A stretch of 64,000 bases of DNA from Anaerolineaceae bacterium oral taxon 439 (GTDB lineage: Bacteria > Chloroflexota > Anaerolineae > Anaerolineales > Anaerolineaceae), in NCBI GenBank assembly GCA_001717545.1, contig CP017039.1:248001-312000 (forward strand), given 5' to 3'. How positions within the stretch are numbered: the first letter of the stretch is position 1; each line of letters opens with the position of its first letter. Shown here piece after piece: positions 28,570 to 42,679 of the stretch. The notes beneath the pieces were generated by a model that saw only the letters and a list, made by a program, of their open reading frames with translations, was not told the DNA's origin and did no database searches. Made by a program: the position numbers and the translations under genes.

Positions 28570-28830
28570 AGGATAATTCTATCAGATTCTCCTGACCGAC
28601 CGCTTTTCCCGCCCGATCGATCGTCGCGCGGTTCCCTGAAGCGCCAAAGAGGGGCGGGCCGATCGCCCCATCGGAAAGCGAAATCGACCGCTTACAAAAT
28701 CCCATTCCGGGGTTCCTGTTTCAGATAAAGGAAAATTTCTTCCTGAATCTGAACTGCACATCCGATCATAGTACAATTGGTTTTAGAAGAGCAGTATTTT
28801 AAATTTAAAATCAAAAACAGGATTGCACAC

Positions 28831-30090
28831 ATGCAGATTCAACGGGATCAATACCTGAACCGGCTTCTCGAGGATCGAGGCAATCGCCGGATCAAAATCG
28901 TCACCGGCGTGCGCCGCTGTGGAAAGTCGTATCTTCTTTTTAAGCTGTTCAAGGACCGACTGATCCGCGAGGGCGTCGCGGAGGACCACATTATTGAAAT
29001 TGCTTTTGACGATCGGAAGTTTAAAGATCTCCGCGACCCGGACGAATGCTACCGCTATGTTACGGGACGAATCGATGAAAACGATCCGAATCCAACTTAT
29101 GTCCTGCTGGACGAGGTTCAACTGATGAAAGAGTTTGAAGACGTGTTAAACGGATTTCTTCATCTTAACAACGCCGACGTTTTCGTAACCGGGAGCAACT
29201 CAAAATTTCTTTCGACCGATATCCTTACGCAATTCCGCGGACGGGGCGATGAAATTCGCATGTACCCGCTCACGTTCAGCGAATTCAGTTCAGCCTGCTC
29301 CGGAAGCTGGGATGAAGTCTGGGAACAATATTATACTTTCGGCGGGCTCCCATACATCTTAACGCTTTCGTCGGTCGCGAAAAAAGCGGAATACCTTCAA
29401 TCCCTTTTCGAGGAAGTCTACCTGCGGGATATTCTCGATCGGAATCAAATCCGGGGAGATTCAGAATTTCGGATATTAATTGACGTTATCTCCTCGGCGA
29501 TCGGTTCGCTCACCAATCCGCAAAAATTATCCGCCGCGTTTAAAAGCGCGGGAAAGACGGATATTTCCCCATCGACGGTCGCCCAGTACCTTCATTATCT
29601 CGAGGAAGCGTTTTTAATTAAGTCCGCGGCGCGATATGACGTCAAAGGGAAAAAATATATCTCAACGCCGAAAAAAATCTACTTCGAGGATGTCGGGCTG
29701 CGGAACGCGCGGCTGAACTTCCGCCAGAACGAAGAGAACCATATCATGGAGAATATTATTTTTAACGAGCTCCGATACCGTGGGTTTTCGGTCGACGTCG
29801 GCGTCGTCGAAGTCAGCGAGAAAAGCGAAAGCGGCGCCTATCGCAGGAAGCAGACGGAAATCGACTTCGTCGCGAACCGCGGGAACCAACGGTATTACCT
29901 GCAATCGGCGTTCACGCTCCAGACGGAAGAAAAAAAGAATCAGGAGAAACGCCCGCTCCTGAACGTCAGGGACTCGTTCCGGAAAATCCTGATCGTACGG
30001 GACCCGATCCTGCTCCGGAGAGATGAAAACGGGCTGGTCACGATGGGGATTAAGGAATTCCTGAGCGACGAAGGCAGCCTCGACCGATAA
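28831..30090 (+). CDS. AAA ATPase with DUF4143 C-terminal domain
   Basis: The 419-residue protein starts at the ATG at 28831 (MQIQRDQYLNRLL). The P-loop is GVRRCGKSYLLFKLF, the Walker B region is YVLLDEVQL, and VTGSNSKFLS is sensor-1 like. The C-terminal part is the DUF4143 nuclease-like fold with TEIDFVAN as a probable active-site strand. These ATPases are abundant in anaerobes and of unknown role; some resemble the ATPase half of mobile or defence loci. Its 3' 345 bases recur at 43062 at the far end of the island, so this gene marks the island's left border. Confidence 0.88.
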   Translation: MQIQRDQYLNRLLEDRGNRRIKIVTGVRRCGKSYLLFKLFKDRLIREGVAEDHIIEIAFDDRKFKDLRDPDECYRYVTGRIDENDPNPTYVLLDEVQLMKEFEDVLNGFLHLNNADVFVTGSNSKFLSTDILTQFRGRGDEIRMYPLTFSEFSSACSGSWDEVWEQYYTFGGLPYILTLSSVAKKAEYLQSLFEEVYLRDILDRNQIRGDSEFRILIDVISSAIGSLTNPQKLSAAFKSAGKTDISPSTVAQYLHYLEEAFLIKSAARYDVKGKKYISTPKKIYFEDVGLRNARLNFRQNEENHIMENIIFNELRYRGFSVDVGVVEVSEKSESGAYRRKQTEIDFVANRGNQRYYLQSAFTLQTEEKKNQEKRPLLNVRDSFRKILIVRDPILLRRDENGLVTMGIKEFLSDEGSLDR

Positions 30091-30784: not shown

Positions 30785-32122
30785 CTATGCGTTTTCGGAC
30801 TGCTTCGCATGGACCTGACGCAGCTTTCTCTCATAATGAAGCTCCAGCAGCTGTTCCAGGTTTCCTTTGAAATATGTACATGGGCTGTGCCGCCGGTCCG
30901 GATCCGCATGCAGGTTTTTCTGTCGGATCCGATGGCAGCCACCGGTGCAGATCGGGAAATAAAAGCACTCTTTGCATTCCTGGGAATCCAGGTAAGAACA
31001 GCCCACCATGCCTTCTGCGATGATCCCCAGATTCCAATTATCAAAGCGGTCGATGCTTCCAACCACCTTGTCCCGAAGCCCCACATCGTCCCAGCACTTG
31101 TACAGCTCTCCGTCCGGGCCTACCACGAAGGCGTTCCTCTTCGTCAGCGTACAGCCGCCGAACTGCCTGCGCGGATAGACACTCAAAGGGCTGATCCCAT
31201 GCTCATTCATCATTTTAATGAGAAATTCGCCCTGGGCCTCCGGCTCGAAGAAACAGCTGACGTCCGGATGGTCGTCCCCCTTCACGAATCCCGGATAAAC
31301 CGTAACCCGTTTTCCAAACGTTTCCGGATAGCGGCTGGAGATCATGTGGTAAACATCGTAGAATTCTTCCTCGTTCCGGGCATCCACATTCACCCGGATA
31401 TGGACCATCCCTTTGAAATCCGAAGACATGACCTTATCTACATTCTCCAGGATGCGGTCATAGGTCGGCGCCCCGTTCTTTAAATACCTTCTTCCATCAT
31501 GCGTTTCTTTTTTTCCATCCAGAGTGATCTGAAGATAAGAAACTCCCAGCTCATTCAGGCGCGCTATCTTCTCCTCGTTCAGGAGATATCCGTTGGTGAT
31601 CAGCGATGCGTGGACCCGCTTTCCCATCTTGCGGATCCTGGAATTGATCATCAGCATCCTGTCAAACGCCAGAAGCGGCTCTCCACCGTACCAGATCAGG
31701 TAGACATTTTTTGTCCTGTAGTGTTCGATGAAACGGAGAAGCTTTTCCGCCACTGCTTCCGACATGGGTCTTCCAGTGCGGTTTCCCTCAAAGCAGTAAC
31801 TGCAGTCGAAATTACATGCCCTGGTAATCGCGATTGTCAGCATGAGGGAACTGGTGGCATACTGGTTGGTGAGCGCGCGCATTTTGGTTATATTGTAAAA
31901 AGCATCATCCTGAGAATCCTCCACCAGAAAGCCAAGCGAACGCAGCTGGATATAGAGCAGAGCTGCATCGGAATAATCATATCCCTCCGGATCCTTCATG
32001 ATTTCGCGCACCATATCCAGTTCCTCCGGCTCCACCTTCAGAAAATTGCGGGAAACGCCATTGAAGAGAAGCCAGCCGTTGCGCCGCGACTCAAAAAGAA
32101 TACTATACTTGGACCACTTCAT
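30785..32122 (-). CDS. Radical SAM/SPASM peptide-modifying enzyme
   Basis: The 445-residue enzyme has an N-terminal ~85-residue domain resembling a peptide-recognition module (YSILFESRRNGWLLFNGVSR). The radical SAM site is CNFDCSYC followed by IWYGGEPLL. A C-terminal SPASM domain contains FGGCTLTKRN, DGELYKCWDD, and CSYLDSQECKECFYFPIC with TGGCHR, enough cysteines for two auxiliary Fe-S clusters. Such enzymes form thioether or related cross-links in ranthi- and sactipeptides. It directly follows the Cys-repeat precursor gene, which is its probable substrate. Start has GAGGTGG upstream. Product chemistry is inferred. Confidence 0.9.
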   Translation of the reverse strand: MKWSKYSILFESRRNGWLLFNGVSRNFLKVEPEELDMVREIMKDPEGYDYSDAALLYIQLRSLGFLVEDSQDDAFYNITKMRALTNQYATSSLMLTIAITRACNFDCSYCFEGNRTGRPMSEAVAEKLLRFIEHYRTKNVYLIWYGGEPLLAFDRMLMINSRIRKMGKRVHASLITNGYLLNEEKIARLNELGVSYLQITLDGKKETHDGRRYLKNGAPTYDRILENVDKVMSSDFKGMVHIRVNVDARNEEEFYDVYHMISSRYPETFGKRVTVYPGFVKGDDHPDVSCFFEPEAQGEFLIKMMNEHGISPLSVYPRRQFGGCTLTKRNAFVVGPDGELYKCWDDVGLRDKVVGSIDRFDNWNLGIIAEGMVGCSYLDSQECKECFYFPICTGGCHRIRQKNLHADPDRRHSPCTYFKGNLEQLLELHYERKLRQVHAKQSENA

Positions 32123-32200
32123 CTTTGCAGACCACCTCGTACACCTTCTATTTTGTAAGCTACAGCTATGCGCTCGATTGCCGAATTACTCCTCCGCTTC

Positions 32201-32980
32201 CTACGATTCAGTAACGGCATCGCAGACATTGGCATTGCAGTCGCCGTAAGCATAGCATGCGTCTCCTTCGCAGGCATTGGCTACGCATCCGCCCAAGGCT
32301 GCGCAGGCATCTCCGGCACAGGCATCACCTACGCATCCGCCCAAGGCTGCGCAGGCGTCTCCGGCACAGGCATCTCCTACGCATCCGCCCAAGGCTGCGC
32401 AGGCATCTCCGGCACAGGCATCTCCTACGCATCCGCCCAAGGCTGCACAGGCATCTCCTGCACAAACATCTCCGGCACAGACGCCATCGGCACCGCAGAC
32501 AGCCGCGCCACAGGCCTCCCCCGCACAGACGGCTGCCGCCCCGCAGGCAGCCGCGCCACAGGCTTGTGCCGCACAGGCTGCCGCCGCCCCACAGGCATCC
32601 GCGCCACAGGCCGCCACGCTTATCGCCACCGCACAGGCGGAAATGATCAGAACAAAAGATAACTCGAGATTGTTCGAATCCACCTCGTCCGATCCCCCGT
32701 CTGACTGCCCCGGATCCTCTCCCGCGCCGCCGGTCACTTTCTCCAGAGCTCGGATATCCAGCTCGTCCGAAATATAATCCGGCTGCACGAAGGTTCCCGC
32801 ATAGTTCGGATCCCTCTCAATGAACTTCAGCCACACCTCTCCAGGCAGATCCTCCCCGGCAATCTCCGCGAGCGCAGAGGCGGAATCTGCCTGCAGCTTC
32901 TTGCGGAATGCTTCATCGGTCTTAGAGCGTTTCATCGCCTTCCTGTAAATCTCCTCCAGCTTCTTCTGTGACCACTTCAT
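32201..32980 (-). CDS. RiPP precursor: nitrile-hydratase-like leader and 26-Cys periodic core
   Basis: The 259-residue peptide has a leader of residues 1-85 matching the NHLP family: YRKAMKRSKTDEAFRKKLQA, then ALAEIAGEDLPGEVW, ending ELDIRALEKVTGG, a double-Gly cleavage site at 84-85. The core (86-259) has an acidic spacer, a hydrophobic stretch (about 106-124), then 25 cysteines from C125 to C253 spaced 5,6,5,5,6,5 without exception, plus C116. The repeating unit is CAGDACAALGGCVGDA. Twelve cysteines have Asp or Glu at +3. GGAG precedes the ATG. It is flanked by exporters upstream and the SPASM enzyme downstream. NHLP leaders define proteusin-type RiPPs; this core is unlike those I know. Confidence 0.9.
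   Translation of the reverse strand: MKWSQKKLEEIYRKAMKRSKTDEAFRKKLQADSASALAEIAGEDLPGEVWLKFIERDPNYAGTFVQPDYISDELDIRALEKVTGGAGEDPGQSDGGSDEVDSNNLELSFVLIISACAVAISVAACGADACGAAAACAAQACGAAACGAAAVCAGEACGAAVCGADGVCAGDVCAGDACAALGGCVGDACAGDACAALGGCVGDACAGDACAALGGCVGDACAGDACAALGGCVANACEGDACYAYGDCNANVCDAVTES
32283..32474 (-). repeat. Four tandem 48-bp repeats within the RiPP core
   Basis: Units begin at 32283, 32331, 32379 and 32427. Units 1-3 differ from one another at no more than two positions; unit 4 has a few more changes. 48 bases equal 16 codons, so the peptide frame is kept. The near identity at synonymous sites indicates recent expansion by slippage or unequal exchange. Confidence 0.95.
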
Positions 32981-33075
32981 AATTTCTCCATTCTCCTCCG
33001 CAAAAGAGGTTCACAAATATAAGTGTATATTTTCAGCATCCCGAATTCGGAATGTCTGCATCCGGTTTTCTTCCT

Positions 33076-35310
33076 TCACAGCACCTGATTCCTTACAAGC
33101 TCGTAGAACATGCCTCTCTTTTCCATCAGCTCTCCGTACGTCCCCATTTCCGAAAAGACTCCTTTGTCAAGCACCACGATACGGTCGCAGTCCCGCACCG
33201 TGGAAAGCCTGTGAGCAACCACGATGCGCGTTGCGTTCATCTGGGCAATGTGGGCACTTATTTTTGCCTGCGTCTCATTGTCCAGGGCGCTGGTCGCCTC
33301 ATCGAAGATTAGCACCTTCGGTTTTTTCGCAAGAGCCCGTGCAATGAGGATCCTCTGCTTCTGTCCGCCCGATACCCCGCCCGCGGTCTCCATGACCGGC
33401 GTCATCACGCCCAACGGCATCTCGTTCAACGCCGGCTCCAATTCCGAAGCTTTCAATGCAAACGCGATATCCTCCTCCGAAGCGTCCGGAGCGGTTCCCT
33501 TGATATTGCTGTAGATGGAGCCGTTGAAAAGACCGCCGTCCTGCAGCACCACTCCAAGATGCCGCCGAAGCTGCACCGGATTCAGCGTCTCCAGGTTGAT
33601 CCCATCGTATGCAATCTGACCCCGCATGGGCTTTTCAAATCCCAAAAGCAGCCGGAGAAGCGTGGACTTGCCACAGCCGCTTCTTCCTACGATGCCTACA
33701 TATTCTCCCGGACGAATGGACAGACTCACGTCCCTGAGGACCGGCTCTTCCCAGCTGTCATAAGCAAAGGTGACATGGGAAAGATCGATCCTTCCCTCCA
33801 GGCCGGAGATCAGGACGCCCCTGGAAGCGGATTCCGGAGGCGTTTTCAGAATGTCTGATGAATTCCTCAGTACCGGCAGCATCCTGAAGATCATCATGAC
33901 GCTGCCGGAAACCTGTCCGAAGGCGGCGGAAAACGCACTGAATACCGACACGAAACCCATGAATGCGCCGATGCTCATGCTGACGGCGCCCGCACCCATC
34001 AGAGAATAGATCAGGATTGTGGAAACCGCCCCAACGCCCATGGAAGCTGCGGCCGATATCTTCTGGCAGCTGTCATATTCATAAGTCAAGGAACCGCACT
34101 CCGAAGCCTTCTTCACATACTCATGAAGGACGAAATCCTCCGCACCCGCGGTCCGCACCGCTTCGATTCCATAAAAGGCCTGGTAAAGGTACGCCCGGAT
34201 CCTGCCCTTCAGGCGGGAACGCCTGCTCTGCAGATTCTGCAGCAAAAGTCCCGTGGCTGCGGTGAGGAGGGCGCTGCAGGAGGAAAGCAGGAGACCGAGA
34301 AGCCCAAGCTGCGCTGAATAGGACATCATCCTTCGGAAATAGAACATGCTGAATACAAGCTGAAGGATCACGGTCATGATGCTGGTGAAAACCGAAATAT
34401 AGCAGCTGGGCAAGGTTCCGGCGCGCCAAGCCAGCTCGGCGGAATCCCGGCTGCGGTAAAAGCTTTCCTTCATCCGGAAGATCCTGCCGTAAATAGAAGC
34501 CTGCAGGCTGTATTTGAGCTTGCTGCTGACCCGGAAGGACGCAAGGGACTGCAGAATGCCAAAAAAGAGGCTGGCCGCCATGAAGGACATCAGGATGCCG
34601 CCATAAGCGAGGAGGTTGCGGATATCGCCCTGGGGGATGATCCGATTGTACATCCTCTCATTCAGCCTGCTAAGCGAAAGGGATACGAAGGTCACGAGGC
34701 TCATTCCCAGAAGGATAAATGCGAAGTCGCCTGCAGAAAGCTCCTGCATCGCATAATGGAAAAACTTCTTTCCCGTAAAGGCCCCGTCTCCCAGAGGGCG
34801 GTAAATCTGACAGACCATCCTTCCGAGTCCAGCCGCCTTTTCCGGATCCAGCCGTTCAAGACTCCCGATCTCCGGGTCGAAATAGTATTTATGCCTCCCC
34901 CGCTTGTTCGTAATCGCGACAGGCTTTCCCTCCTCTCCCATGAAAGCCAGCACCGGTCCGATATCTGCGGATGCGATGTCCTCCGGCGTCTCCACCCTGC
35001 GAATGTCAAAATCGGAAAGTCTCGCAATATCCTCCACCGTATAGGTGTGCATGGCGCTTCGCAGGGTTTCATATGCCACGATAGGAATCTTCAGATAATC
35101 GCAAAGGAAACTCAAAGAAGAGTAAAGGGCATCGGCATGCGCCGCCCTTCTCGCGCTTTTGCGCTCCTTCGTCAGGACGAAAGACGACCGGATCTCCTGT
35201 GCGTTTTCCCGCCTCAGCGCCTGCCTCTTCTCTTTATTCCTGCGGATTCTCTCCCGCCTCTGCGCTTCCCTGAAAGAGAGATTCTGTTCCCTCTCAATTC
35301 TTTCTGCCAT
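33076..35310 (-). CDS. NHLM-type ABC transporter, membrane and ATP-binding protein without peptidase
   Basis: From the ATG at 35310 the protein has 744 residues. The N-terminal ~190 residues are a charged, soluble cap (FREAQRRERIRRNKEKRQ and onward). A six-helix exporter domain follows, then an ABC domain: GRSGCGKSTLLRLLLG (Walker A), GVSGGQKQRILIARAL (signature), VLIFDEATSAL (Walker B). This layout matches the second ATPase of NHLM-type RiPP export loci, which lacks the C39 peptidase. It starts 7 bases after the C39 exporter gene stop and probably pairs with that protein. Confidence 0.9.
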   Translation of the reverse strand: MAERIEREQNLSFREAQRRERIRRNKEKRQALRRENAQEIRSSFVLTKERKSARRAAHADALYSSLSFLCDYLKIPIVAYETLRSAMHTYTVEDIARLSDFDIRRVETPEDIASADIGPVLAFMGEEGKPVAITNKRGRHKYYFDPEIGSLERLDPEKAAGLGRMVCQIYRPLGDGAFTGKKFFHYAMQELSAGDFAFILLGMSLVTFVSLSLSRLNERMYNRIIPQGDIRNLLAYGGILMSFMAASLFFGILQSLASFRVSSKLKYSLQASIYGRIFRMKESFYRSRDSAELAWRAGTLPSCYISVFTSIMTVILQLVFSMFYFRRMMSYSAQLGLLGLLLSSCSALLTAATGLLLQNLQSRRSRLKGRIRAYLYQAFYGIEAVRTAGAEDFVLHEYVKKASECGSLTYEYDSCQKISAAASMGVGAVSTILIYSLMGAGAVSMSIGAFMGFVSVFSAFSAAFGQVSGSVMMIFRMLPVLRNSSDILKTPPESASRGVLISGLEGRIDLSHVTFAYDSWEEPVLRDVSLSIRPGEYVGIVGRSGCGKSTLLRLLLGFEKPMRGQIAYDGINLETLNPVQLRRHLGVVLQDGGLFNGSIYSNIKGTAPDASEEDIAFALKASELEPALNEMPLGVMTPVMETAGGVSGGQKQRILIARALAKKPKVLIFDEATSALDNETQAKISAHIAQMNATRIVVAHRLSTVRDCDRIVVLDKGVFSEMGTYGELMEKRGMFYELVRNQVL

Positions 35311-35317
35311 CCTGCTT

Positions 35318-37519
35318 TTACTCCACAAGTTTTGCGTAAATTCCGTTTTTTTCCAAAAGCGCCTCATGGGTGCCCCATTCCGCGATCCTTCCGCCCGCAA
35401 GCACGACGATCATGTCACAGTCCCGGATTGCCGAAAGGCGGTGCGCCGCAAGGATGCAGGTGCACCCGCGCTTCTTCAGGTTCTCCATGATTTTCTTTTC
35501 GGAAATGGCATCAAGGGCGGCCGTCGCCTCGTCCAGAATGAGGATGGCCGGATCCCTGTATAATGCCCTCGCGATCTCAAGCCGTTGCCGCTGTCCTCCG
35601 GAAAGGTTTCCCCCGCCCTCGGTAAGCCGATGTTCCAGGCCATAGGGAAGCTTTCGGATCATTTCGTCCGCTTCCGCATCCCGGATCGCCTCCATAAGGC
35701 ATTCTTCGGAATAATCCTCGTTGAAAAACGTAAGGTTTTCCCGAACGCTCCCAGAGAAAAAGAAGGGACTCTGCCCCACCATGGCTATGCCCTCGGTCAG
35801 GATATCGCAGGGTATCGAGCGGATATCCATTCCATCGAAACGCACGGTCCCGCTCCAAGGCTCCAGGATGCCGGACAGGAGCTTCAGAGCAGTACTCTTT
35901 CCGCAGCCCGACCCGCCCACGATTGCCACCCTCATTCCCGGCGCGATTCCCATGGAGATTTCATTCAGGAGCGGTTTTCGGTTCCGGTTGTACCCGAAGA
36001 CCAGGTCCTTCACGTCCACACACCCGGAAAGAGGCCGGATCTTATGTCCTCGTTCCTCTTTTACATGATACCTCGGATCCTCTTTCGCATTCTCGACATC
36101 CTCTACCCTGGCAAGTCCCGCCTTCATGTCCTGTACGTCCCTCGACATGGAGATCAGTTCCTTCACGGGATTCATAAGGAATCCCAGGAGCATGGTGAAT
36201 GCCGTGAGCATACCGGTAGTAAAGTCGCCTTTTATAATTAAGATCGCACCGGCAGTCAGCACGGCAAGGTTCGTTATACCGAAAACCATGCCCGGAAGGG
36301 CAGAAAGGGTCTGGGATACCTGTCCCAGTCTCTGGTCGGACTGCGTGATTTCCGCATAGCCTCCGATCATCTCTGCGGCATACTCGCTCTCGATTCCGCT
36401 GGCCTTGATGGTGGAACTGATGGAAAATCCCGCGCAGAGCCTCGCGTTCAGATGCCCCGTGTCCTGTTTTAGCTTCAGGTTCATGGCGGCGACGGGACGC
36501 AGGATGAGAAAACTGGAAAGAATATTCAGTCCAATCCCTGCCGCCCCGATCAGCGACAGCAACGGGCTGTACCAGACCATCAGGAGAAAAAAGAATACCG
36601 ATTCCATGATATCCAGAAGCACGGAAGACAGCCCTCCGGCCAGGAACGCATGGACTTCATCATTATTGTCAAGCCTCGTGGACAGATCCCCGATATACCG
36701 CTGGGAAAAAAACGAAGTCTTAAGGCGAAGCATATGCTCTGCCAGACTGCATCCTGTGACGAGGGTGAGCTTCAGCTTCAGCTTCGCAAGAATCGTCTGC
36801 CGGATCCATGTAAAGAAGATCTGGAAAGCGTAGGAAAACCCTATGACAGCCAGGATCTTCGAAATCCAGAAAGCCGTCTCTTTCAAGAGGACATGATCCA
36901 CGAACATCTGGGTCATCACCGAAAGGGCAAGTCCGGCCAGGATCAGCAAAAGACCGGTCAGAAGCAGGGCCGTGACCGCCGGAACATTCAGGACCGCCCT
37001 CTTCCAGATAAAACGGAAGAAGGAATCCGGTTCGGATTCCCTGTGGAAGCCGTCCCCCGGAGCAAAATACAGCGCCACCCCGGTAAAGCTCCTCTCCAGA
37101 TCCTCCATGGAGATCTTCCTTCTACCGGATTTCGGATCGTTCAGGTAGGCGCAGTCTCCCCGGATGCCCTCCAGAACGACGAAATGGTTAAATTCCCAGT
37201 GGATGATGCATGGAAACGGCGTGTCCCTCAGGGCCTTCGCATTCTTTCTCCAGGCTTTGGCCGTAAGCCCGTAAAGCTCCCCCGCCCGGACTAAATCGGC
37301 CGCCGTGCTTCCGTCCCGGGAAACACCGCACTCGTCCCTCAGCGTCTCCATCGGTACCGGGCAGCGGTAATAACGCAGGATCATTGAAAGGCATGCCGCG
37401 CCGCACTCACAGGCCTCGATTTGGAAAACGGTGGGAACCCGCCTTCTGCGGCTCCCTTGAGAAAAGCCGAACCTGGTCTTTTTGTCATTTGCCGAATTTT
37501 TATCCGTTTCCCGCCGCAT
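35318..37519 (-). CDS. NHLM-type peptidase-containing ABC exporter (C39 peptidase)
   Basis: The 733-residue protein has an N-terminal C39 peptidase: catalytic Cys in EACECGAACLSMIL, His in HWEFNHFVVLEG and Asp in LNDPKSGRR. This domain cuts leaders after Gly-Gly, matching the VTGG end of the precursor leader. A six-helix membrane domain and an ABC domain follow (GGSGCGKSTALKLLSG; NLSGGQRQRLEIARAL; LILDEATAALD). It would mature and export the modified peptide. The first codon region is followed by a basic stretch (FSQGSRRRRVPTVFQIE), as in other C39 exporters. Confidence 0.94.
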   Translation of the reverse strand: MRRETDKNSANDKKTRFGFSQGSRRRRVPTVFQIEACECGAACLSMILRYYRCPVPMETLRDECGVSRDGSTAADLVRAGELYGLTAKAWRKNAKALRDTPFPCIIHWEFNHFVVLEGIRGDCAYLNDPKSGRRKISMEDLERSFTGVALYFAPGDGFHRESEPDSFFRFIWKRAVLNVPAVTALLLTGLLLILAGLALSVMTQMFVDHVLLKETAFWISKILAVIGFSYAFQIFFTWIRQTILAKLKLKLTLVTGCSLAEHMLRLKTSFFSQRYIGDLSTRLDNNDEVHAFLAGGLSSVLLDIMESVFFFLLMVWYSPLLSLIGAAGIGLNILSSFLILRPVAAMNLKLKQDTGHLNARLCAGFSISSTIKASGIESEYAAEMIGGYAEITQSDQRLGQVSQTLSALPGMVFGITNLAVLTAGAILIIKGDFTTGMLTAFTMLLGFLMNPVKELISMSRDVQDMKAGLARVEDVENAKEDPRYHVKEERGHKIRPLSGCVDVKDLVFGYNRNRKPLLNEISMGIAPGMRVAIVGGSGCGKSTALKLLSGILEPWSGTVRFDGMDIRSIPCDILTEGIAMVGQSPFFFSGSVRENLTFFNEDYSEECLMEAIRDAEADEMIRKLPYGLEHRLTEGGGNLSGGQRQRLEIARALYRDPAILILDEATAALDAISEKKIMENLKKRGCTCILAAHRLSAIRDCDMIVVLAGGRIAEWGTHEALLEKNGIYAKLVE

Positions 37520-37552
37520 CGCCCTTTTTGCTTCTCCTCAAAACTTCTCTCG

Positions 37553-38149
37553 TCAAAACTCCGGATAGAACACCTTGAGCGGTTGCTGGACGGATGTTAC
37601 GATAGACACCGAGGCCCATGTCCCGTCCTTTACGTTTACTGACTTTCCGCGTTCATTGTTCCAGAAATACCCGTTTTCGGACGATTCATCTTCCTCAAGC
37701 TTCAGGACTACCAGCACCACCGGTCCTCTCTGGGTAAACATGCTTGTCATCAGGTCATCACCCAGAAGGCTTTGCATCTCGGAAACGGATGATACATACG
37801 GATCCACCCAAGTCACCTCAGCATCCATATGCCCGTATTGCTGCTGGTCATAGCCGGACAGGGATACGCTTGCGCGCATTCCGGGATCAATCTTCTTCCC
37901 GGCGGAGATGGGCATGAAGCACAGGATTTCCCCATACGAGGCAGCGCCCGGATGGTACAGCCCCGTGGCGGAAGACGTGATGGTGATCACTCCCAGGAAA
38001 ACCCAGCAGAGGATGGCTGCGGCGATGATGAGTCCTCCGGCCAGCGCCAGAGAATACCTGCGCGGCACTACCCGGATCATCTGTTCCATGCGGTCTGCAT
38101 CATTCTCTTCGGGTTTATTCTCCCTGATGAATATCTTCTTCTCTCCCAT
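37553..38149 (-). CDS. Short HlyD-family export accessory protein
   Basis: The 198-residue protein starts at the ATG at 38149 (GGAGGAAG upstream). One membrane helix (LALAGGLIIAAAILCWVFLG) is followed by a short periplasmic/extracytoplasmic beta region (LSGYDQQQYGHMDAEVTWVDPY). The position before the C39 exporter and the layout fit the NHLM secretion protein, but that protein is normally about twice as long; the helical hairpin and lipoyl half-motifs appear to be missing. In a cell with no outer-membrane TolC partner a shortened adaptor would make sense. This is inference. Confidence 0.72.
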   Translation of the reverse strand: MGEKKIFIRENKPEENDADRMEQMIRVVPRRYSLALAGGLIIAAAILCWVFLGVITITSSATGLYHPGAASYGEILCFMPISAGKKIDPGMRASVSLSGYDQQQYGHMDAEVTWVDPYVSSVSEMQSLLGDDLMTSMFTQRGPVVLVVLKLEEDESSENGYFWNNERGKSVNVKDGTWASVSIVTSVQQPLKVFYPEF

Positions 38150-38212
38150 TACGCTTCCTCCTCCCAGGCGGCTCTGCCGCTGTACCACCTTGGCAGCGAC
38201 AAAAACAGGATT

Positions 38213-39559
38213 TCATCCTTCATCCGGATCACGTACCGCCTTCCCGGAGAGAGTTATGAACCCTTTCTCAAACAATGTCTCCATGGCTCCCAGCAACCGT
38301 CCGGCCGCCAGAACGTTCACCTCGCCGGACGCGACCGCCTCGGAAACCGATATGCCGTCTCCCTGAAGGTGGAGAAGCATCGCTTCCATGTTGGAATCAA
38401 TGCGGAGTCTGATTCCGCCTGCTTTTCCAATGAGGAGCCCGTTTACCGCATCCTCGCGGCTAAAGAGGACGCGCGGCGTCAGGCGCAGCCTTGTATCCGC
38501 ATGGATCCGGTCAATCGCCCACTTTTCGATTAGAAACGATGCCTTTTCACGGAAGTCCTCCGCCGAGCGGAAGCTAAGCGTTTCAAACGTCTGAACGCCC
38601 GTCGGGTACTCCGGGGAGGGATTGACCGGCTCCATGAAGGAGACCTCCCTGTCGGGAAGCCGAACCATGAGCCCGGCAATACAGGAAATCGGATACCGGA
38701 TTCCCTCTTTCCCAACCATCCTTCCCGATGCGGAATATCGGTTGACAGATTCGGGATTGTTTGCGATAAGTTCGATATCCTCCAGCTCCTCAGCGGTATA
38801 CATCCGCATCAACCGGTAAAACTCCTTCAGGGAACAGACCGATATTCGCATGCCCGCTTCACGCAGCCCATCTTCGCCAAGAAACGACAAAAGTGCCCTG
38901 AATCTTTCCGGCTCCCTTAGCGCAGCGGCGGTCGTTGTCTGGGGAACGGTCCCCAGGATCTCGCGGTAACCCGCCATGAAGCGCTCATAATCCGGGTTGT
39001 CGAACGGCTCCGTAGCAAAATAACAAGGTCCCATGCCGGCCGCAGGGCCTATAATTTCCAAAACCGCGGCAAGTATGCCGTGCCAAAGGAGGCGGTTTTC
39101 TTCATAACGGGCGACGCCAGCCAGCCGGGACGCGGCAAGGCCGCAAAAAGGACACTGAACACTGCAGCCTTTTGAAAGTTCGAAGGCCACGGGATAATAC
39201 AGGACATTGTCGTGGCCGCAAAATTCCCGGTTCGTGAGGAAGATGCGGTTTCGCACAATGTTTATATAGCGGTACATCTTTTCCGAGGCAAATTGCTCAC
39301 GGGAAGCCCTCTGCCGGATCAGTTTTTCCACCGCCAGTACCCGGTCCCGGTATAACGCAAGATACGGGTTCTTCTCCCAGCTCTGCGTACAAAGACCGTC
39401 CAGCATAACGAGAGCCTCATCGGTTCTCACCACATCCTCGCCGACTCCGATCTCCCGGAGGGTTTCAGAAGGATCATCCCGCAGCCTTGTCGGAAATTGC
39501 AACGGATCCGCACTGCAGCATTCATAAAGTCTTTTCAGGGCGCTGTACCTTCTATCCAT
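38213..39559 (-). CDS. PoyD-like radical SAM peptide epimerase
   Basis: The 448-residue enzyme has the radical SAM site CSVQCPFCGLA inside FELSKGCSVQCPFC, then ATEPFDNPDYERFM, the PQTTTAAALREPERFRALL block, and ELIANNPESVNRYSASGR. This order matches the PoyD family of RiPP maturation epimerases, which turn L- into D-residues in proteusin cores. The C-terminal ~90 residues look like a winged-helix peptide-binding module (LRIDSNMEAMLLHLQGDG). It is the first biosynthetic gene of the locus. The start at 39559 is in frame with an upstream TTG at 39586. Confidence 0.88.
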   Translation of the reverse strand: MDRRYSALKRLYECCSADPLQFPTRLRDDPSETLREIGVGEDVVRTDEALVMLDGLCTQSWEKNPYLALYRDRVLAVEKLIRQRASREQFASEKMYRYINIVRNRIFLTNREFCGHDNVLYYPVAFELSKGCSVQCPFCGLAASRLAGVARYEENRLLWHGILAAVLEIIGPAAGMGPCYFATEPFDNPDYERFMAGYREILGTVPQTTTAAALREPERFRALLSFLGEDGLREAGMRISVCSLKEFYRLMRMYTAEELEDIELIANNPESVNRYSASGRMVGKEGIRYPISCIAGLMVRLPDREVSFMEPVNPSPEYPTGVQTFETLSFRSAEDFREKASFLIEKWAIDRIHADTRLRLTPRVLFSREDAVNGLLIGKAGGIRLRIDSNMEAMLLHLQGDGISVSEAVASGEVNVLAAGRLLGAMETLFEKGFITLSGKAVRDPDEG

Positions 39560-39640
39560 GCCCTCCTCTACCCTTTTACATCTCAAGGTTTCCGGCTACC
39601 ATACTTATCTCCTTACAATGACCGAATCTGTTCATTCTAT

Positions 39641-40156
39641 TTATTCGTTTTTTATAGAATCTATCGCTGTTGCAAGCACGATCATATTCAGTCCGGTTTC
39701 AATCAAATAGATACCGATCAGCATGCCAATTGCAAATACAGATACCATAGGATGAGCAAACGAGTAGATACCAAGGATAAGACCCAGGATACCCAGTATC
39801 AGGCCCCAATACCATCCTTTCTTATATGGCTTTGCTTTAATAGAGACATAAATAGAGACGGCGCCCTGAGCCATAAACCATGCCGCAACAAGATAAAGGA
39901 TCACAGCGTCAAAAGCCAGAGTTGTTCCCGGTCTGAAAAACGCAATGATTCCGATGATGATTGCAGGTATATGCACGACCAGTTCTATTGCCTGAGCCCT
40001 TTTACGTATCACATTAGCAATTCCAATAATTCCATATACAAATAGCAGGATCGCGATAAAATAACCGGTCTCCAGAAAAGCTGCGGCAGGATGAAACAGA
40101 CACCGAAAGCCGCCAAACATCAACAAAATTCCCAAAATCACAGACAGAATCAACAT
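39641..40156 (-). CDS. DUF308/HdeD-type membrane protein
   Basis: The 171-residue protein has six hydrophobic helices arranged as pairs, with a central AWFMAQGAVSIYVSI segment and Gly-rich helices (GLILGILGLILGIYSF) typical of DUF308/HdeD. HdeD proteins are linked to acid stress in enterics, but the biochemical role is unknown. It sits between the RiPP genes and the two-component system on the same strand, with more AT-rich composition than the host genes. A self-protection role is possible but unsupported. Confidence 0.82.
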   Translation of the reverse strand: MLILSVILGILLMFGGFRCLFHPAAAFLETGYFIAILLFVYGIIGIANVIRKRAQAIELVVHIPAIIIGIIAFFRPGTTLAFDAVILYLVAAWFMAQGAVSIYVSIKAKPYKKGWYWGLILGILGLILGIYSFAHPMVSVFAIGMLIGIYLIETGLNMIVLATAIDSIKNE

Positions 40157-40616: not shown

Positions 40617-41930
40617 CTAGTATAACGGAATGGCTATATTCGCAAGAAACTCTTTCCCCTCATTGGAAAATTCGGCTGTTCCGCCATATGATGATACGAT
40701 CGTCGCTATGGATGAAAGGCCGAGTCCGGTATGGTTTCTTCCGACGGAAAAATATGCCCCGTTTCTCATATCCACATGCCCGTCAAAACTGTTGGTCGAG
40801 ACAATGTAAAGCCACCCGCCTCTCCCGGTTACGGTCAGCTGGATAAAGTGTTCCTTTGCATCGGATTTTTTGCATGCGTTTACCGCGTTTTCCATAAGGT
40901 TTCCTATGATACTGCACAGATCCACATCGGAAATATTCAGGTTTTCTGAAAGCGTAACAGCGAAATCAAAAACCGTTTCCGAAGCCCTCGCGCTTTCGGC
41001 GTAATAGTTAAGGATCGCATTTACCGCCCTGTTTTCACAGAAATCCCTTATTTCATTTTCGGGAAAAGACTCCATATAGGCCTTAAGGTAACCGCGTATT
41101 TCATCCGCATCGCCGCTCTTCGCCATATTATAAAGAGTACGGACAGTCTGTCTGAAATCATGGCGGGCCCTGGCAGTTTCATCCATATATTTTTGAACGG
41201 TCTGGTATTGTATTTCCTGCATTTCAAGAATTTTCAGCCGCTGCTCCGCTTTTGCCGCGTCCAGTATGCCTTTCGCGATCAGATAAAACGTAATGTTCGA
41301 CAGCACCCATGCAAAAAACATCGCTGTAAGGGAAAACGCGGCCACCCAGCCTATCCGGTTCACGTGGAGCGTCTCATATTTCAATGGCCGGATGAACACA
41401 TTTATAAGAAGGATGCACATGGAAAACGGAACCGTCATGCACCATACTTTAGGCAGATCCAGTTCATCCATGAGAGTGCTGCCATACTTGTAAAAAAATA
41501 TCGCAAGCACCGCGGTCAAGATCACTCCCGCCGCCAGCTGAAAAAGGATATAGTCTGAAGTAGAGGAGTTGATTCCAAGCCGGGGATGACGCGCGGCGTC
41601 AAAGCACGCGGCAGAATTTGAAATTATGGCATACAGGGCGCACATATTCATGAACGCCGCAAGAGCCTTGCTGATATGGGCATTTATGCACATAACATAG
41701 ATGACAAAGCATATCATAATGACAGCGAAAAACATGATGTTTCCATCTATGGCGAAACGGACGGTGATCCAGGAACCGATCATGCTCAACAGGGCATATG
41801 CCGGGAAAAACCTTAGAAAGACGGAGCCTTTAGGATATTTCATCTGATTTCTCATCGGGAGAATACAGAGCAATGCCGCGGGTATTATTATGATGTAGGA
41901 AAGCAGTTCATTTAAAAATAAATCCATCAT
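40617..41930 (-). CDS. Agr-type GHKL sensor histidine kinase
   Basis: The 437-residue protein starts at the ATG at 41930, whose ATGA overlaps the response regulator stop; a longer frame to 41990 is inside that gene. About six N-terminal membrane helices are followed by ARARHDFRQTVRTLYNM (phospho-acceptor His) and a GHKL ATPase with NLMENAVNACKK (N box) and GLGLSSIATIVSSYGG (G box). This is the AgrC class, which senses small secreted peptides. It is transcribed after the response regulator and upstream of the RiPP genes on the same strand, so quorum control of the peptide locus is plausible. Confidence 0.9.
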   Translation of the reverse strand: MMDLFLNELLSYIIIIPAALLCILPMRNQMKYPKGSVFLRFFPAYALLSMIGSWITVRFAIDGNIMFFAVIMICFVIYVMCINAHISKALAAFMNMCALYAIISNSAACFDAARHPRLGINSSTSDYILFQLAAGVILTAVLAIFFYKYGSTLMDELDLPKVWCMTVPFSMCILLINVFIRPLKYETLHVNRIGWVAAFSLTAMFFAWVLSNITFYLIAKGILDAAKAEQRLKILEMQEIQYQTVQKYMDETARARHDFRQTVRTLYNMAKSGDADEIRGYLKAYMESFPENEIRDFCENRAVNAILNYYAESARASETVFDFAVTLSENLNISDVDLCSIIGNLMENAVNACKKSDAKEHFIQLTVTGRGGWLYIVSTNSFDGHVDMRNGAYFSVGRNHTGLGLSSIATIVSSYGGTAEFSNEGKEFLANIAIPLY

Positions 41931-42679
41931 CCGTGTTTTCTTCTTTCCCTCGCCTCGTTTCTCAGCGTGGTAAAAATATGGTTTTTCCATGTCTCAATCA
42001 GCTGCTCCTGTTTCATCAGGCTGCAGGGAAAGATCTTCCCATAGATCTTTACGGCTCCTCCCTCTATGCCCTGAATGTAATCCATGTTCACACATACTCC
42101 CCGAATGATGAGAAGAAACCGGCTGTCCTTAAAAAGTTCCCCGGATACAGAAGCAAAGGAACGGCGCTGTCTATATACATAATTATCCTTATCAAGGATT
42201 TCGATATTATGAGCCGAAGCTGTAACGGAAACAATATCAGCATAAGGCAGGAGCAATTCCTTCCTGCCGCAGGAAAGCTTAAGGCAGGGCGAAGGGACTG
42301 ATATTTTCCGACATATGTCGTCCATCACCCTGTATATTTTATCCGGAGCAGCGGGCTTTTCAATATAATCAAAAGCATGGGTGTGAAAAGCCTTTAAATA
42401 ATGTTCTCTGCTCGTGGTGAGAAAAACCATGAACGTATCCTTGTCCTTCCCCCTGATATTTTCTGCCGCCGTCACTCCATCCGTCCCATCCATATAGATG
42501 TCGAGAAAGATCACAGTGTAGCGCAGCGGCCAATAGCCTTTTAGCAGTTCCTGCGCACTTTCAAACGGATGGATGCGTATGTCCATCCCGTTTACCGCGG
42601 CGTATTCCTTTAATATAGATGACAATGCGTCCCTGTCGCCCACACTATCATCAGCTATGGCGATGTTCATTCTTATCAC
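41927..42679 (-). CDS. LytTR-family response regulator
   Basis: The 250-residue protein has a receiver domain with IAIADDSVGDRDAL, the phospho-acceptor Asp in FLDIYMDG and DYIEKPAA, then a C-terminal LytTR DNA-binding domain (YRQRRSFASVSGELF, RGVCVNMDYIQGIEGG). It is the AgrA class. The start may be the GTG at 42679 (AAGGA 4 nt upstream) or the ATG at 42670. It overlaps the kinase by 4 bases. LytTR regulators bind pairs of ~9-base direct repeats; I could not identify such repeats near the RiPP genes. Confidence 0.9.
   Translation of the reverse strand: MIRMNIAIADDSVGDRDALSSILKEYAAVNGMDIRIHPFESAQELLKGYWPLRYTVIFLDIYMDGTDGVTAAENIRGKDKDTFMVFLTTSREHYLKAFHTHAFDYIEKPAAPDKIYRVMDDICRKISVPSPCLKLSCGRKELLLPYADIVSVTASAHNIEILDKDNYVYRQRRSFASVSGELFKDSRFLLIIRGVCVNMDYIQGIEGGAVKIYGKIFPCSLMKQEQLIETWKNHIFTTLRNEARERRKHG

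Follow-up and report, generated by a model that had tools for sequence, protein, structure and literature searches.

A radical SAM peptide locus of Anaerolineaceae bacterium oral taxon 439 whose precursor may hold separate zones for a PoyD-type epimerase and a SPASM enzyme

Peptide epimerases of the PoyD family abstract an alpha hydrogen, with a protein Cys as the likely hydrogen donor. According to the accessible part of PMC8326336, epimerization by PoyD follows a 1,3 pattern, and in PlpA the epimerase acts on Val and Ile; the same part of that source gives Asp or Asn as the thioether acceptor in freyrasin and NxxcA. A PoyD-type epimerase and a SPASM enzyme, both radical S-adenosylmethionine (SAM) proteins, are encoded in one locus of Anaerolineaceae bacterium oral taxon 439. 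This locus spans positions 30785-39586 of a 64,000-nucleotide stretch of contig CP017039.1 (the window), where the two genes form opposite ends of a single run. From 39586 to 30785, the list of open reading frames (ORFs) gives the PoyD-type epimerase, a short HlyD, a C39 peptidase/ABC protein, a second ABC protein, the precursor peptide, and the SPASM enzyme. A sequence-only reading had reported six adjacent minus-strand genes, and all six are confirmed where it placed them.

The NHLP leader, the precursor, the two radical SAM enzymes, and the NHLM-type exporter would constitute one pathway. In the proposed mechanism, the PoyD-type enzyme would epimerize residues in a hydrophobic module, and the SPASM enzyme would cross-link the ladder cysteines into rings through a thioether from each Cys to a neighboring residue. 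The best candidate acceptor may be the polar residue three places after the Cys, which is most frequently Asp or Asn. Cleavage behind Gly-Gly and secretion of the product would then fall to the C39 exporter. It is probable, by a modest measure, that the core consists of two fused substrates, namely a hydrophobic stretch for the epimerase and a 5-5-6 ladder for SPASM cross-linking, released by the Gly-Gly cut and C39 export. Split loci would keep these substrates on separate peptides, and the window precursor would join both. The sequence-only reading had assigned epimerization and SPASM chemistry to a single precursor, with D-residues and many Cys-derived links in a strictly periodic core. Its first part holds, in that both enzymes serve the same locus and their pairing is conserved across many loci, but the evidence points to two zones in one core rather than to both chemistries along the ladder.

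The module has the consensus (I/L/V)S-x3-(I/V/L)-x-S-x-C-A-x-A, with variants, and is located at the start of the Cys region. The comparison covers 82 loci, comprising 80 from a genome scan, the window, and the same-genus locus L003. Exactly one module-bearing NHLP precursor is present in 33 of the 36 loci with both PoyD and an NHLP leader, even amid two to five NHLP precursors, and the module occurs in none of the four NHLP loci without PoyD, a set of weak controls (Fisher 3.8e-4 among NHLP loci, uncorrected for ancestry). The module profile was built from 8 stretches of these same loci, so 9 of the 33 (the window, L003, L025, L028, L029, L030, L043, L046, and L065) match by construction. The count of 33 was obtained with bias correction off and a limit of 8 bits, set after L034 had been seen at 9.1; a first profile scan with bias correction yielded 27 NHLP precursors but overlooked some evident ones, and a regular-expression search gave 26 matches. 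One non-NHLP ORF (L045) passes the limit, at 11.1 bits. At L049:2542-7083, five NHLP precursors surround one SPASM-PoyD pair, and only one of them contains the module.

In three loci (L055, L058, and L059, the last from Victivallis vadensis), the Cys peptides beside the SPASM gene are short and lack the module, and the PoyD gene adjoins an NHLP peptide of its own, which is hydrophobic and Cys-free in its core and has its single Cys in the leader. This peptide ends 15 (L055) and 19 (L059) bases before the PoyD ORF, and the L058 PoyD ORF as called extends back over it. The apparent partner of PoyD in these split loci is a hydrophobic peptide, and the module may be the corresponding segment in fused loci. 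Alternatively, the module could be a membrane or export segment, with PoyD acting elsewhere or, in some loci, on another peptide. This would agree with its hydrophobicity, its placement after the leader, and the genes for Nif11-like peptides (recognized by eye) near PoyD at L034:7180-7422 and L035:18981-19253. Such a role seems unlikely given the contrast of 33/36 with 0/4 among NHLP loci and the 2.9-Mb window genome, in which the precursor is the single TIGR03793 match at E 0.01.

The ladder of the window precursor comprises 26 Cys across 144 residues, counted from the first core Cys, with spacings of 9,5,6,5,5,6,5,5,6,5,5,6,5,5,6,5,5,6,5,5,6,5,5,6,5. Spacings of 5 or 6 account for 24 of the 25, compared with 3.8 on average and at most 12 among 20000 shuffles. 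The strict periodicity of the sequence-only reading is borne out, but the repeat it called 5-6-5 is better named 5-5-6 from this list. Three consecutive 16-residue units (at 184, 200, and 216) have the same protein sequence and agree at 46-47 of 48 DNA positions; the array has therefore grown recently, and duplication explains part of its regularity. A largely functionless ladder, produced for the most part by recent expansion of a DNA repeat, is nonetheless very improbable, as the remaining neighboring units share only 7-14 of 16 residues and yet keep the frame, and the frame is also kept in 12 other long-ladder precursors.

In the 13 long-ladder module precursors, which were hand-picked from the 33 (L029 was excluded as identical to the L003 precursor), the first spacing is 9 and most others are 5, 6, 10, 11, or 15. 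The frame of 5 or 6 runs on through positions without Cys, which yields the spacings of 10, 11, and 15. Because it is kept where individual Cys are lost, the selected property is probably a repeating fold rather than the cysteines alone. The five-residue unit has the pattern Cys-small-small-polar-small: a polar residue (DENQKRHSTY) occupies +3 in 161 of 200 five-residue units from these 13 precursors, compared with 19 at +1, 11 at +2, and 10 at +4. PapB, a distant relative of the SPASM enzyme, tolerates both D-residues and Cys-Xn-Asp motifs with n = 0-6 (PMC9413430, accessible part), and this tolerance makes a possible link to the +3 polar residue chemically reasonable. Across the 33 module precursors, the second core Cys is at +9 from the first in 20, +13 in 8, +12 in 4, and +10 in 1, and ladder length ranges from 2 Cys (L047-L050) to 34 Cys (L027). 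The L025, L026, and L051 precursors carry long acidic, Gly/Ser- or His-rich C-terminal tails beyond the ladder, and the window precursor has none. A second NHLP precursor at L033:9480-9980 lacks the module and has spacings of 6 and 7, not 5 and 6.

Both enzymes could instead act along the whole ladder, placing a thioether and D-residues in each repeat. In favor of this possibility, the single NHLP-leader match of the genome belongs to the one precursor that both enzymes share, and PapB takes D-residues at and between linked positions, as stated in the accessible part of PMC9413430. It is nevertheless doubtful, because a step of five would place successive Cys on opposite parity, a misfit with an unbroken 1,3 pattern if all Cys share one configuration, and because module and PoyD co-occur even in loci whose module precursor carries just 2 Cys (L047-L050).

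The SPASM enzyme has as its nearest NCBIfam models CefB ("Cys-every-fifth"), TIGR04463, and Clo7bot. Alignment A1 of its family contains 11 invariant Cys, in a CX2CX5CX3C pattern associated with two auxiliary clusters. Among the matches listed, 8 of 10 relatives exceed the cut-off of TIGR04085, the SPASM domain model. The nearest solved structure is 5wgg (2.7e-28, profile A1), presumably CteB, a thioether-forming SCIFF maturase. By the Cys pattern, the SPASM domain of the relatives, and this nearest structure, a thioether ladder is the likeliest product. A ladder without carbon cross-links, in which the cysteines bind a metal or iron-sulfur cluster or form disulfides after export and the SPASM enzyme performs another reaction, would suit the density of 26 Cys in 144 residues and a SPASM subfamily that fits no named equivalog. 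Its probability is low, as related SPASM genes repeatedly adjoin NHLP peptides with Cys-x4-Cys motifs and 5wgg is the nearest solved relative.

The PoyD-type enzyme is the one protein of the six that exceeds its NCBIfam cut-off in the family scans; the other five have fitting best models with scores below cut-off. A CxxxCxxC motif at residues 141/145/148 and Cys302 are invariant in all 36 aligned PoyD ORFs, which are those longer than 350 amino acids (two shorter of the 38 were left out). Cys302 would correspond to PoyD Cys372, and the conserved motif together with this further Cys makes it plausible that the enzyme is an active epimerase. A search of solved structures gave no significant relative (best E 0.35). 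In a phylum sample of 400 genomes, TIGR04517 is over its cut-off in 1, which is the genome of the window, and a second match is weak; among 400 genomes of the order, the SPASM profile at 1e-80 is found in 2. Both counts show rarity only.

The gene set is found in about two dozen other bacteria. A protein search gave 1777 SPASM homologues at E 1e-20, and the 120 listed, the window's own included, have 51-100% identity and 83-100% query coverage. The genome scan found 445 SPASM relatives, and the best 80 of the 445 loci were kept; the leader search covered 45 of 81 loci in a first pass and all 82, the window included, in a later one. A PoyD homologue is present in 38 of the 82 loci and an NHLP-leader ORF in 40, with both in 36, PoyD only in 2, NHLP only in 4, and neither in 40 (Fisher 3e-16, uncorrected for ancestry). 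The sequence-only reading had proposed a search for the precursor family and its neighborhoods, and the SPASM-PoyD pairing indeed recurs among the loci of SPASM relatives, along with the joint presence of PoyD and NHLP leader. The two PoyD-only loci (L022 and L041) are contigs of about 3 kb, and flank lengths differ among loci. The loci are not independent: clustering at 90% SPASM identity reduces the 33 module loci to 25, the 38 PoyD loci to 28, and the 40 NHLP loci to 32.

Module loci include Lachnospiraceae, other Clostridia (several from rumen or gut), Lactobacillales/Streptococcaceae, and a Treponema; the 40 loci with neither PoyD nor NHLP are mostly of Bacteroidales type. The SPASM and PoyD ORFs overlap or are at most 45 bases apart in 21 of 34 measured pairs, with a 4-base overlap in seven (L022, L023, L024, L030, L033, L041, and L046). 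SPASM and PoyD distances correlate across the 34 pairs (r 0.92; 0 of 2000 permutations), with species kinship uncontrolled. In L034 (443-2263) and L035 (7313-9133), a 606-residue ORF lies beside the Cys precursors; by eye, it presumably resembles a B12-type radical SAM methyltransferase of ribosomally synthesized and post-translationally modified peptides (RiPPs).

Several findings weigh against the two-zone reading. The four NHLP loci without PoyD are weak controls, as L052 and L054 belong to one assembly, L060 stands alone, and the L057 contig ends about 0.8 kb past the SPASM gene. PoyD may have another substrate in L034 and L035, given their Nif11-like genes. SPASM and PoyD genes are 0.6-6.1 kb apart in 13 of 34 pairs, and the window's own pair is the furthest. 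The window SPASM enzyme scores below every named equivalog cut-off among the models listed, PapB (114.5/340) and SCIFF (98.8/425) included; likewise, ten SPASM enzymes across the loci, four of them from module loci (L033, L046, L050, and L053), miss every equivalog cut-off, CefB included, among the 25 models listed for each. The +3 residue cannot be the sole acceptor, because it is Ala in 36 of 216 units and Asp or Asn in 124 in a 17-precursor profile set that includes four precursors without the module. AlphaFold2 models of the window precursor give a predicted local distance difference test score under 50 for residues 83-259, with no confident core fold, and most of the core of the very regular L030 precursor is also under 50; short strands appear every few residues in these low-confidence models. 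Finally, nostatin A has a PoyD-like epimerase with a single D-residue, a modified Pro (PMC11583998, accessible part), so the presence of a PoyD-type enzyme gives no count of flipped residues.

The leader matches the NHLP model below its cut-off and ends in KVTGG, with Gly-Gly at residues 84-85. ABC1 contains a C39 peptidase domain (PF03412, 2.9e-36); both features of double-glycine processing are therefore present. Residues 1-70 of the AlphaFold2 model have block means of 70-91. The three export proteins miss the cut-offs of the NHLM export models, and each such model is nonetheless the best NCBIfam match for its protein. Along the run, the intergenic distances are 24 bases for PoyD-HlyD, 33 for HlyD-ABC1, 95 for ABC2-precursor, and 78 for precursor-SPASM, and the ABC1 and ABC2 ORFs overlap as listed. 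The listed TTG start of ABC2 causes this overlap, and the real start may be further inside the ORF. Coordinates are collected in Table 1.

Table 1. Features of the six-gene run, in window positions; scores are in bits and followed by the model cut-off.
Feature	Position	Strand	Support
PoyD-type radical SAM peptide epimerase	38213..39586	-	Start ATG at 39559 or TTG at 39586; TIGR04517 429.5 (cut-off 325)
Short HlyD-like export adaptor	37553..38188	-	TIGR03794 89.1 (cut-off 156.2), best stretch profile 295-417 of 421
C39 peptidase / ABC exporter (NHLM ABC1)	35318..37519	-	TIGR03796 828.8 (cut-off 853.3); PF03412, PF00664, PF00005
Second NHLM ABC protein (ABC2)	33076..35400	-	TIGR03797 608.1 (cut-off 709.4)
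Precursor peptide, 259 amino acids	32201..32980	-	NHLP leader TIGR03793 34.1, E 1.8e-8 (cut-off 50.9); CefA NF038108 25.1 (cut-off 30)
NHLP leader ending Gly-Gly, residues 1-85	32726..32980	-	TIGR03793 profile; AlphaFold2
Hydrophobic module LSFVLIISACAVAISVAAC, residues 107-125, proposed PoyD target	32606..32662	-	Module profile 42.3 (stretch itself a seed)
Cys ladder, 26 Cys, spacing 9 then repeating 5-5-6	32204..32635	-	Spacing counts, shuffles
SPASM radical SAM enzyme, proposed Cys cross-linking maturase	30785..32122	-	CefB 215.7/600, TIGR04463 204.1/525, Clo7bot 195.4/600; PF04055; 5wgg

Promoter-like matches number 11, compared with 6.2 (sd 2.7) expected, and terminator-like matches number 11, compared with 10.5 expected. 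Just upstream of the PoyD gene is an HdeD-like membrane protein (DUF308; 39641-40156, minus strand). A GHKL sensor kinase (PF14501) and a response regulator (PF00072) are also encoded upstream of the run (40617-42679, minus strand) and, by analogy with quorum-sensing systems, could control it. Directly downstream of the SPASM gene is a small ion-channel-like protein (PF07885; 30293-30706, minus strand), and an AAA_14/DUF4143 ATPase (28777-30090) is encoded on the plus strand, opposite to the run.

If the two-zone reading is correct, the locus would provide a naturally occurring substrate with separable zones on which a radical epimerase and a radical cross-linker both act. Natural ladder-length variants and split versions would make the division of substrate between two radical SAM enzymes testable, and the product would offer a stapled peptide scaffold with genetically tunable length. 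Such a product could be a bacteriocin, a signal, or a surface peptide.

CefA/CefB (NF038108/NF038107), a Cys-every-fifth RiPP and its SPASM maturase, share with the window locus a Cys at each fifth position by name, and CefB is the nearest named model to the window enzyme. However, both window proteins are below cut-off, the precursor at 25.1/30 bits over 3 stretches and the enzyme at 215.7/600. Ranthipeptides (freyrasin/PapB, SCIFF, and NxxcA) likewise have a SPASM maturase and a Cys-containing core, but the window enzyme is below the PapB and SCIFF cut-offs. To our knowledge, the freyrasin/PapB, SCIFF, and NxxcA systems have neither an epimerase nor an NHLP leader. Because the window enzyme misses the CefB, PapB, and SCIFF cut-offs and the precursor misses that of CefA, the locus is not filed under them.

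The Pleurocapsa spliceotide locus PlpX/PlpY/PlpD reportedly encodes NHLP precursors together with a PoyD-type epimerase and a further radical SAM maturase, so that an NHLP leader, a PoyD-type epimerase, and a second radical SAM enzyme would be common to it and the window locus; its maturase is said to excise tyramine, and it reportedly has no Cys ladder. Proteusins with PoyD-type epimerases (polytheonamide, landornamide, and PlpA) resemble the window locus in an NHLP-type leader, although the window leader is below the model cut-off, and in a TIGR04517 score above cut-off and a hydrophobic stretch after the leader. They differ in that the window has a SPASM enzyme and a Cys ladder, and no C-methyltransferase among its six genes. 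Nostatin A, a RiPP with an NHLP leader, likewise combines a PoyD-like epimerase with a sactionine-type thioether. It differs in its azoles and dehydration, and the proposed site of its thioether is a Ser that has been dehydrated, with no SPASM enzyme involved (PMC11583998, accessible part). The sequence-only statement that proteusins with PoyD-type epimerases and ranthi/sactipeptides with SPASM enzymes are known separately needs amending, since nostatin A joins a PoyD-like epimerase and a thioether, although a SPASM enzyme is not the proposed source of the latter.

In the literature consulted, mostly without subscription journals, no description of the family or its product was found, and a rumen bacteriocin survey counts 2 proteusins, with the word epimerase absent from its accessible part (PMC13289728). 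To that extent the literature bears out the sequence-only reading, which knew of no such type, although Cys-every-fifth SPASM RiPPs are already represented in NCBIfam by CefA/CefB. Its further claim of a new RiPP class must await the product, and there is a real chance of such a class once the product is known. A specific form of it is speculative and on balance doubtful: an epimerized, membrane-entering hydrophobic segment joined to a thioether-stapled solenoid with 16-residue coils, of 2 to >30 Cys by repeat duplication, made by a dedicated SPASM-PoyD pair. As far as sequence comparison suggests, the locus combines the workings of a proteusin epimerase pathway with those of a pathway to thioethers.

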